A stretch of DNA of 64,000 nt from Arcicella rosea (GTDB lineage Bacteria; Bacteroidota; Bacteroidia; Cytophagales; Spirosomataceae). The notes below the pieces were generated by a model, which was not told where the DNA came from, did not search any database, and saw nothing but the letters and a program-made list of their open reading frames with translations. Shown in pieces: positions 29 to 3,196 of this stretch. The translations under genes and the position numbers were made by a program. Each line of letters starts with the position of its first letter. Position 1 is the first letter of the stretch. The DNA lies in contig NZ_JACHKT010000015.1 in the NCBI RefSeq assembly GCF_014204325.1, positions 62,001-126,000 on the forward strand, given 5' to 3'.

Positions 29-125
29 GAAAAGAGAAAGATTTGCTCTACCAACTGAGCTACTACTTGTGTAAAGTAAGTGGGACTCGAACCCACGACC
101 CAACCGCCCCGAAGCATCTCTTTTC
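29..125 (-). ncRNA. Y RNA-like permuted tRNA mimic (unit A)
   Basis: Read on the minus strand, a 9-bp closing stem (117-125 gaaaagaga with 29-37 tctcttttc) encloses a tRNA-like module in permuted order. First comes a T arm at 96-80, stem GTGGG/CCCAC around the canonical loop TTCGAGT. Next is a 6-bp acceptor-like stem (79-74 with 68-63, one G-U pair) capped by a 5-base loop TACAC. Then come TA and a perfect D arm at 60-45, GCTC-AGTTGGTA-GAGC. A tRNA opened at the anticodon and sealed at its acceptor end has exactly this order, as described for the tRNA-like module of bacterial YrlA RNAs. The same-strand rsr gene just upstream fits a Ro60-bound Y RNA. The arms are seen directly; the Y RNA identity is inferred from family knowledge, and the ends and expression are unknown. 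Confidence 0.8.
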
Positions 126-2185: not shown

Positions 2186-3196
2186 ATGCCTGCTAATAGA
2201 AATGCCTTGATTCGGTATAAAACCATTGATACTTGTTTGCAGAACCGTCACAGAAAATGGACTTTAGAAGACTTGATAGAAAGTGTTTCGGAGGCTCTTT
2301 ATGAGTATGAAGGAATCCATAAAGGCATCAGTAAAAGAAGTATTCAGGCTGATATACAAATGATGAGAAGTGAAAAATTGGGTTATGAAGCACCGATTGT
2401 TGTCATCGACAAAAAATATTATACTTATGAAGACCCCAATTTTAGTATTACAAAAACGCCTTTGACCAGTGCAGACGTTTCCAGAATGAACGAGGCACTT
2501 GATATGTTAAAGCAGTTCAAAGGGTTTTCTCACTTCAACCAACTCAGTGAAGTAATCAATAAATTAGAAGAACATATTTACAGCAATAAAGAAAAACGTA
2601 ATTCAGTAATTGATTTTGAGAAAAACGAGAACCTCAGGGGACTTGAGTACTTGGATGATATTTACCAATCTATCCTTCAAAAAAAAGCGATATATCTGAA
2701 TTATCGGTCATTCAAAGCTCAACAGGCAAATCAATTTTACTTTCATGTTTGGTGGCTAAAAGAATTTAAAAACCGATGGTTTGCCGTAGGAGTACGACAT
2801 AAACATGATGTAATCACCACTTTGGCATTAGACAGAATCTTAGATTTGAAAATTGATGCAGACGCTCCTTACATCGAAAATCTAAAATATAGCCCAGAAT
2901 TGTATTATTATCATGTGATAGGTGCAACGGTAAGCCATAATGTGCGGGCAAGCAAAGTAAGAATCAAAGTCAGTAATTTGCACGCTCCATACATAGAAAC
3001 TAAACCTTTGCATCATTCACAACAAGTAGTAGAAAGAAGCAATACGGGAATTATTATTGAAATAAAAGTTCAATTAAACTTTGAGCTTGAGAAGGAATTA
3101 TTGGGTTTTGGGGAAGGCTTGGAAGTATTAGAACCACCTATTTTAAGAAAAATCATGCAGAAAAGATTGGATAGGGCGAGTGAGCAGTATAGATAA
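2186..3196 (+). CDS. WYL-domain transcriptional regulator
   Basis: A 336-residue protein with an N-terminal helix-turn-helix region (about residues 1-75), a middle helical region and a WYL-type Sm-like domain (about 150-260) with the typical RWFAVG strand. WYL domains are thought to sense nucleic-acid or nucleotide ligands and control defence or repair genes. The gene diverges from rsr across 279 bases that must hold both promoters, so control of rsr and the Y-like RNAs is the natural inference. The length is normal for the large Bacteroidota WYL subfamily. The start ATG has good N-terminal homology features. A strong 15-bp hairpin follows at 3231. Confidence 0.85.
   Translation: MPANRNALIRYKTIDTCLQNRHRKWTLEDLIESVSEALYEYEGIHKGISKRSIQADIQMMRSEKLGYEAPIVVIDKKYYTYEDPNFSITKTPLTSADVSRMNEALDMLKQFKGFSHFNQLSEVINKLEEHIYSNKEKRNSVIDFEKNENLRGLEYLDDIYQSILQKKAIYLNYRSFKAQQANQFYFHVWWLKEFKNRWFAVGVRHKHDVITTLALDRILDLKIDADAPYIENLKYSPELYYYHVIGATVSHNVRASKVRIKVSNLHAPYIETKPLHHSQQVVERSNTGIIIEIKVQLNFELEKELLGFGEGLEVLEPPILRKIMQKRLDRASEQYR

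Follow-up and report, generated by a model that had tools for sequence, protein, structure and literature searches.

We analysed a stretch of 64,000 nucleotides from Arcicella rosea (contig NZ_JACHKT010000015.1, positions 62,001 to 126,000; hereafter the window) and found that its minus strand carries, at 15-137, a complete Y RNA-like unit that contains a tRNA mimic with permuted helix order. The unit lies beside rsr, the gene for a Ro60 orthologue, and is the third of an array of three. We consider it quite likely that this element is a YrlA-kind Y RNA of the neighbouring Rsr, with a tRNA-elbow module that tethers or gates an enzyme on Rsr during RNA repair. It is assigned to this known kind because it matches the YrlA model, its helices covary among relatives, high-scoring units and Ro60 genes occur in the same 14 genomes of a class-wide sample, and the genes run in the order rsr, units, rtcB. 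Here we document the anatomy of the unit, its covariation (including a tertiary pair), its co-occurrence with rsr and its place in the operon.

In the available text of three papers, bacterial Y RNAs connect Ro60 with a single nuclease by mimicking tRNA (PMC8394870, PMC7790460, PMC8058203). In YrlA, as the accessible part of a review has it, the basal stem binds Rsr and the tRNA-like domain binds PNPase (PMC8394870). The corresponding Salmonella operon is given as rsr-yrlBA-rtcBA (PMC7790460, accessible text).

Results

The original prediction placed a closing stem, a T arm, a capped 6-bp stem, TA and a D arm on the minus strand at 29-125, and direct reading recovers these inner parts in that order. 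The full unit delimited by our frame parser is longer (15-137); an outer stem and an internal loop had been missed. The unit begins with the 5' strand of this outer stem, S1 (133-137, pairing with 19-15; helix 1 of the alignment below), the motif TGCCGTA (126-132) and the 5' strand of the 9-bp closing stem, S2 (117-125, pairing with 37-29; helix 2, of which 8 of 9 pairs were scored for covariation). There follow ATGCTTCG (110-117; alignment consensus TTACTTCG), a variable-loop-like GGGTC (97-101) whose C at 97 occupies the place of tRNA nucleotide 48, and the T arm, GTGGG TTCGAGT CCCAC (80-96). The chain then forms an acceptor-like hairpin (63-79) with six pairs, the outermost G-U (79-74 with 68-63), sealed by the five-base loop TACAC (73-69), and continues through TA (62-61) into the D arm, GCTC AGTTGGTA GAGC (60-45; TA and D arm together 45-62). 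Between the 3' strands of S2 (29-37) and S1 (15-19) lies GTTTTTTGC (20-28), which faces TGCCGTA in an asymmetric internal loop (28-20 opposite 132-126). S2, the T arm, the hairpin and the D arm were read directly, with further support from the Rfam YrlA model for both arms and from a swap test for the hairpin; S1 and ATGCTTCG were placed by alignment and the 3' loop strand by the frame parser. Covariation covers all the stems and this loop strand. The motif TGCCGTA is exact in 92 of the 177 units described below and is probably the Rsr-binding site. As modelled, the unit resembles a tRNA opened up at the anticodon and closed off where the amino acid would be attached.

A search with a YrlA covariance model, proposed as a check of the original prediction, gave a divided answer: RF02553, which is independent of the sequences collected here, matched the unit over its full length at 18-124 (E 8e-9), with a score of 44.6 bits, under the gathering score of 69. 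The permuted order predicted earlier, T arm, capped acceptor hairpin, D arm, is that of Rfam YrlA, as both the full-length alignment and the covariation show, and cmscan lays the window's S2 on the outermost stem of the model. Because 69 bits is a curation threshold, we file the element under its biological kind, YrlA, and not as a member of RF02553. Across the whole 5.3-Mb genome the best YrlA score falls at this unit, followed by 34.9, 32.5 and 31.1 bits at tandem tRNA-Lys-like genes (contig 55, identified by eye) and 16.3 bits elsewhere; judged from their sequence, such tandem genes imitate the permuted order by adjacency. A loose search (E up to 10) produced YrlA matches in 13 of 14 control genomes, none above the cut-off, and weak YrlA scores therefore mean little. 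At gathering scores Rfam gave no match in the 64-kb window. Of the 46 rsr loci described below, 40 were submitted to Rfam, and none of these had an RF02553 match at that level.

Other tRNA-related identities were rejected. The order of an ordinary tRNA gene (acceptor-D-anticodon-T-acceptor with a free 3' end) was not seen by direct reading, ARAGORN or Rfam, and ARAGORN reported no tRNA or transfer-messenger RNA (tmRNA) in the window. A tmRNA resembles the unit in holding tRNA-like elements within a longer RNA, but RF00023 scored 16.5 bits against the 47 required. A broken tRNA gene, which the original prediction had named as its own possible refutation, does not fit either; helix order, cap and covariation all argue against it.

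To place the unit among its relatives we collected 46 rsr loci (handles L006-L051; L denotes a locus, G a genome), from rsr matches in 12 of 59 genomes, the window's own among them, and from 34 named contigs. The latter are mostly labelled Bacteroidota, with L026 labelled Limnohabitans and L033 Balneolaceae. A parser written after inspection of the loci, for the frame S1 - TGCCGTA - S2 - TTACTTCG - payload - S2' - GNNNNTTGC - S1', found 177 units in 43 of the 46 loci, some of them misparsed across two neighbours, compared with 3 in one dinucleotide shuffle (297,395 bases each). All but two (175/177) are on the rsr strand. The loci with no parsed unit are L017, where the rsr match spans only 54 residues, L050, where rsr is cut by the contig end, and L042, in which R1, a model of these units, detects one at 42.3 bits. 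By hand count, 39 of the 46 loci have an R1 score of 64 bits or higher; the exceptions are L017, L050 and five Bacteroidales-type loci (L038, L039, L042, L044 and L048). Its score for unit 3 of the window, 107.7 bits, is high by construction, as this unit belongs to the training set.

A permuted tRNA mimic is present in 60 of the 177 units, across 35 loci, and at least two of the 60, in L013 and L026, look out of register. Forty passed limits on length and motif, and two of these were removed by hand, a near duplicate (L022) and the out-of-register unit L013:1192-1318, leaving a formal alignment of 38 that includes the window unit. From the MAFFT alignment, RNAalifold predicted 29 pairs, 26 of which have changes on both sides. 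The named structure was paired in 95.6% of cells, a figure raised by the selection of units, versus 69.5% in shuffles; double-change cells numbered 322 versus 86.5, and 28 of the 31 named pairs had changed on both sides. The covariation score was 0.733, compared with at most 0.143 when the structure was slid. Compensatory changes in related genomes had been suggested as a check at the outset, and none of the five helices lacked them; the tRNA Levitt pair 15-48 showed them too. The 5' and 3' ends form the basal stem, helices 1 and 2 being paired in 98.9% and 91.1% of cells, among units preselected for such pairing.

What carries the argument is the diversity of pairs, together with the cap stem and the Levitt pair. 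The last was not used in finding the units, and cap pairing had minor weight in placing the D arm. The Levitt pair is G-C in 41, A-T in 17 and something else in 2 of the 60 units, and G-C or A-T in all 38 aligned ones; the two exceptions are the out-of-register L013 unit and an L026 unit other than the out-of-register one. For the cap segment, the first and last six bases paired at 0.885 in cognate combinations and at 0.483 when halves were swapped (58 units anchored by the D-arm motif), and none of 10000 permutations reached the cognate sum. Moreover, the third base of TGCCGTA covaries with the 3' loop (CG 19, UA 17 and UG 2 of 38), and the presumed Rsr site is therefore structured.

Co-occurrence with Ro60 was followed in two sets of genomes. 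In the class-wide sample a TROVE (Ro60) match was found in 14 of 295 genomes. R1 scores separate the same 14 from the remaining 281 without overlap, the lowest being 81.7 bits among the former and the highest 58.9 among the latter; some R1 match at E 0.001 or better occurs in 159 of the 295. By coordinates, RNA and TROVE match are no more than 2 kb apart in 13 of the 14. Among the 59 relatives the 11 genomes with a full rsr, and no others, scored above 93 bits with R1 (57.2 elsewhere), a result that is circular because 10 of these 11 loci trained R1. Ro60 matches were also found in 95 phage records; of four phage stretches examined, three (L082-L084) carry R1-positive units before the Ro60 gene, at 81 to 107.3 bits. 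The frame is therefore not confined to Bacteroidota.

The original prediction describes one unit; two sister units had been overlooked. All three are on the minus strand with rsr. Unit 2 (142-237; R1 45.5 bits) has the same frame, with a payload, judged by eye, of a T arm without a D arm. Unit 1 (243-380) scores weakly with R1 (18.7 bits); its payload, GGGGAGG...CCCC together with a T arm and a pseudoknot, belongs to what we call class B. The Ro60 orthologue, rsr, lies at 389-1906 (Pfam TROVE, E 3.9e-31), directly beside the units. Its product scored 24.4 bits with vWA_Ro60, under the cut-off of 27.7, and its closest PDB sequences, 9L5Y and 9KOP, are both TROVE proteins. In the direction of transcription the order is rsr, three Y RNA-like units, rtcB, with rtcB (Pfam RtcB) beginning just beyond the window, about 50 nucleotides after unit 3.

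On the other side of rsr is a divergent gene for a WYL/WCX regulator (2186-3196, plus strand). Between the two, at 1951-1969 on the minus strand, we found by eye an 18/19 match to the palindrome TACGCAAAAAGACTGCGYA, a probable operator. Of the 46 rsr loci, 30 contain the strict pattern, TRCGCA-N7-TGCGYA, which the window misses by one base; in 24 it stands no more than 300 nucleotides ahead of the rsr match. The six slipin loci of this comparison, described below, all contain it as well; the 52 mononucleotide-shuffled loci do not. The palindrome is probably a WYL operator. Two other loci have runs of ordinary tRNA genes beside rsr (L010:453-1426 and 3075-3146; L027:1088-2232), with 8 and 10 Rfam tRNA matches, respectively; these are perhaps spare tRNAs in an RNA repair island.

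The frame holds payloads of several kinds. A first sorter had recognised only 15 permuted mimics, 12 of them among the 60 that we count; outside the 60 it assigned 20 units to class B, 28 to a minimal class (minimal stems) and 3 to a class with a 23S-like stretch. The remaining 66 of the 177 are T-arm-only, variant, false or unrecognised. In class B, the type of unit 1 of the window, GGGG...CCCC, a hairpin and a T arm are accompanied by a second helix that crosses the first. The strands of the crossing helix match better in cognate than in swapped combinations (72.0 versus a mean of 46.3 and a maximum of 67.4; 0 of 5000 permutations as high; 19 of 20 units, one being skipped because no T arm was found), and the class is therefore a pseudoknotted T-arm module. 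In L009 (3545-3607, minus strand) a tRNA match of 43.2 bits (model positions 6-65 of 71), with the anticodon arm present, lies inside an Rsr frame.

The three units with the 23S-like stretch AACGGTCCTAAGGTAGCG align with one another (unit starts L034:5554, L009 minus 341 and L026:6015). Thirty-three bases of the L034 unit are identical to sequence at five places in G033, one of which lies in a large-subunit rRNA gene, and at two in G011. The stretch is absent from G000 and G008, and in G005's own assembly it occurs only in the unit itself. A further payload, L039:2859-2939, matches positions 1079-1158 of the Rfam large-subunit (bacterial 23S rRNA) model at 63.9 bits, above gathering; we take this region to be the GTPase-associated centre. 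The segment after CTTCG forms a 7-base loop in 14 units, with T at position 33 in 11 of them. An anticodon loop was considered here and set aside as a weak lead; most hairpin-bearing units have other loop sizes, and unit 3 of the window is not among the 14. A literature search, which did not reach the primary YrlA papers, returned no title on arrays, a pseudoknotted class or rRNA-like payloads.

Related RNAs also accompany slipin genes. We opened six high-R1 genomes with no Ro60 match (G004, G007, G010, G095, G298 and G348), and in each of them the R1 match is flanked by a WYL gene and a slipin-like gene (tblastn; Band_7 in all three that were tested). Two of the six stretches (L069 and L070) include rtcB. 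A scan of 10 slipin loci detected nine permuted modules that have both cap and D arm, spread over 8 of the loci (L063-L066, L073, L074, L079 and L081), with two of the modules within one RNA in L063; L077 and L078 yielded none. The Rsr frame is absent from the four short slipin stretches parsed (L063-L066), and slipin and rsr genes occur together in L010, L051 and G034. As mimics are present in slipin operons free of Ro60, the permuted mimic goes with WYL-linked RNA repair operons in a broader sense, and not just with Ro60.

Discussion

Taken together, the results support a Y RNA of Rsr. The original prediction of a functional Y RNA of a Bacteroidota Rsr agrees in this respect with gene order, covariation and co-occurrence; that the RNA is functional we infer. 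Like Salmonella YrlA (RF02553), the unit has a basal stem, a T arm, a capped acceptor hairpin, TA and a D arm in the same order, and its gene stands beside rsr with rtcB in the same run. It differs in scoring under the gathering threshold, in its basal frame (TGCCGTA / GNNNNTTGC + TTACTTCG) and in belonging to an array of three with differing payloads. The Salmonella operon likewise unites rsr, Y RNAs and rtcB (PMC7790460, accessible text), whereas the window has three units and a divergent WYL/WCX regulator gene beside rsr. The Rsr - Y RNA - PNPase complex of Deinococcus radiodurans (RYPER) shares a Ro60 orthologue and a Y RNA tether, according to the available text of PMC8394870 and PMC8058203; its partner is PNPase, whereas that of the window unit is a putative elbow-binding enzyme. 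The phage TROVE proteins also have a tRNA-like partner, in phage rather than chromosomal loci.

We propose that a transcript would run from rsr through the three Y RNAs to rtcB, and that the unit is probably cut out of it. The outer double stem with its TGCCGTA / GNNNNTTGC loop would dock on the Rsr ring. The inner module is predicted to fold as a tRNA elbow, with the T loop on the D loop, the Levitt pair and a capped acceptor helix, and would be unable to be charged or to decode. The elbow may be presented to an enzyme that recognises tRNA elbows, which the RNA would tether or gate on Rsr during RNA repair. From the results above and the published accounts of YrlA, with PNPase as precedent, a tether with its handle on Rsr and its elbow towards the enzyme is the most likely working.

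The main rival to the tether is a decoy, in which the units, docked on Rsr next to the RtcB ligase, would act as sponges: by imitating tRNA and rRNA surfaces they would capture the nucleases or other toxins that attack such surfaces. The gene order shared with this RNA ligase suits such a role, as do the 23S-like stretches that sister units in relatives bear besides tRNA mimics, and the authors of PMC7790460 raise, in its available text, a competitive-inhibitor role for YrlA. However, the permuted unit of the window lacks an anticodon arm, the target of anticodon nucleases. According to the same text, YrlA fragments went undetected with the nuclease in question, so that a decoy would have to be bound without being cleaved; we regard this role as rather unlikely. 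A cis-acting leader, whereby the unit about 50 nucleotides before rtcB would be a tRNA-like control element of the rtcB mRNA and not a free RNA, draws on the fact that the unit directly precedes rtcB on the same strand. It seems to us improbable, given that units lie upstream of rsr in 11 of 46 loci (including L009 and L010; L023 is an opposite-strand call) and about 26 kb from it in G134, and that rtcB was found in only 11 of 46 rsr loci within the short flanks scanned.

Decayed tandem tRNA genes, in which a T arm and the next D arm are neighbours by chance, were also considered. Tandem tRNA-Lys-like genes on contig 55 do score 31-35 bits with YrlA, and a tandem pair would be a plausible origin of the permuted order. 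Decay of this kind is scarcely credible as an account of the unit itself: the frame and the cap stem show compensatory changes, cap stem and Levitt pair covary across relatives, ARAGORN finds no tRNA gene in the window, and the frame recurs in 43 of 46 rsr loci compared with 3 units in the shuffled control.

Several observations weigh against the assignment to Rsr. Mimics with the same helix order occur in slipin operons without Ro60, and the tRNA-like module therefore need not act through Rsr. In G134 the array, six units together on contig 4 (213400-214700; L067), shares its contig with rsr but lies about 26 kb away, and no unit was parsed in the 3.5 kb around rsr. The class sample is only partly independent, because R1 training loci may coincide with sampled genomes, and its R1 scan was restricted to the best candidates of each genome, under stricter filters by which weak matches are lost. 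The search rules for units demand pairing in S1, S2, T and D, which inflates the paired percentages there. The RF02553 score stays below the gathering score (44.6 versus 69 bits). The unaided fold of 20-135 is no more stable than shuffles (z -0.28; 70 of 200 fold equally well or better). Thermodynamic folding was accordingly dropped as proof, and the support for the unit consists of models and covariation. With these points counted, a YrlA-kind Y RNA of Rsr remains our preferred reading.

A broader proposal, to which we give slightly less than an even chance, is that the Rsr of Bacteroidota is a universal dock with a fixed handle and swappable payloads: permuted tRNAs, the pseudoknotted T-arm module and defined 23S patches, namely AACGGTCCTAAGGTAGCG and, in a single unit, the region taken to be the GTPase-associated centre. 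Slipin (SPFH) would be a sister system that uses the same permuted mimic in another frame, and each payload would bring one translation-related enzyme or toxin to the repair operon.

Looking forward, the Rfam threshold hides part of the YrlA family. It can now be asked in testable form why the same permuted mimic accompanies Ro60 in certain operons and slipin in others. If many bacteria keep arrays of one handle and many payloads beside repair genes, the payloads would be a readable list of the targets with which Rsr engages. Through an array of mimics on a common docking stem, RNA repair may be linked to several components of the translation machinery.
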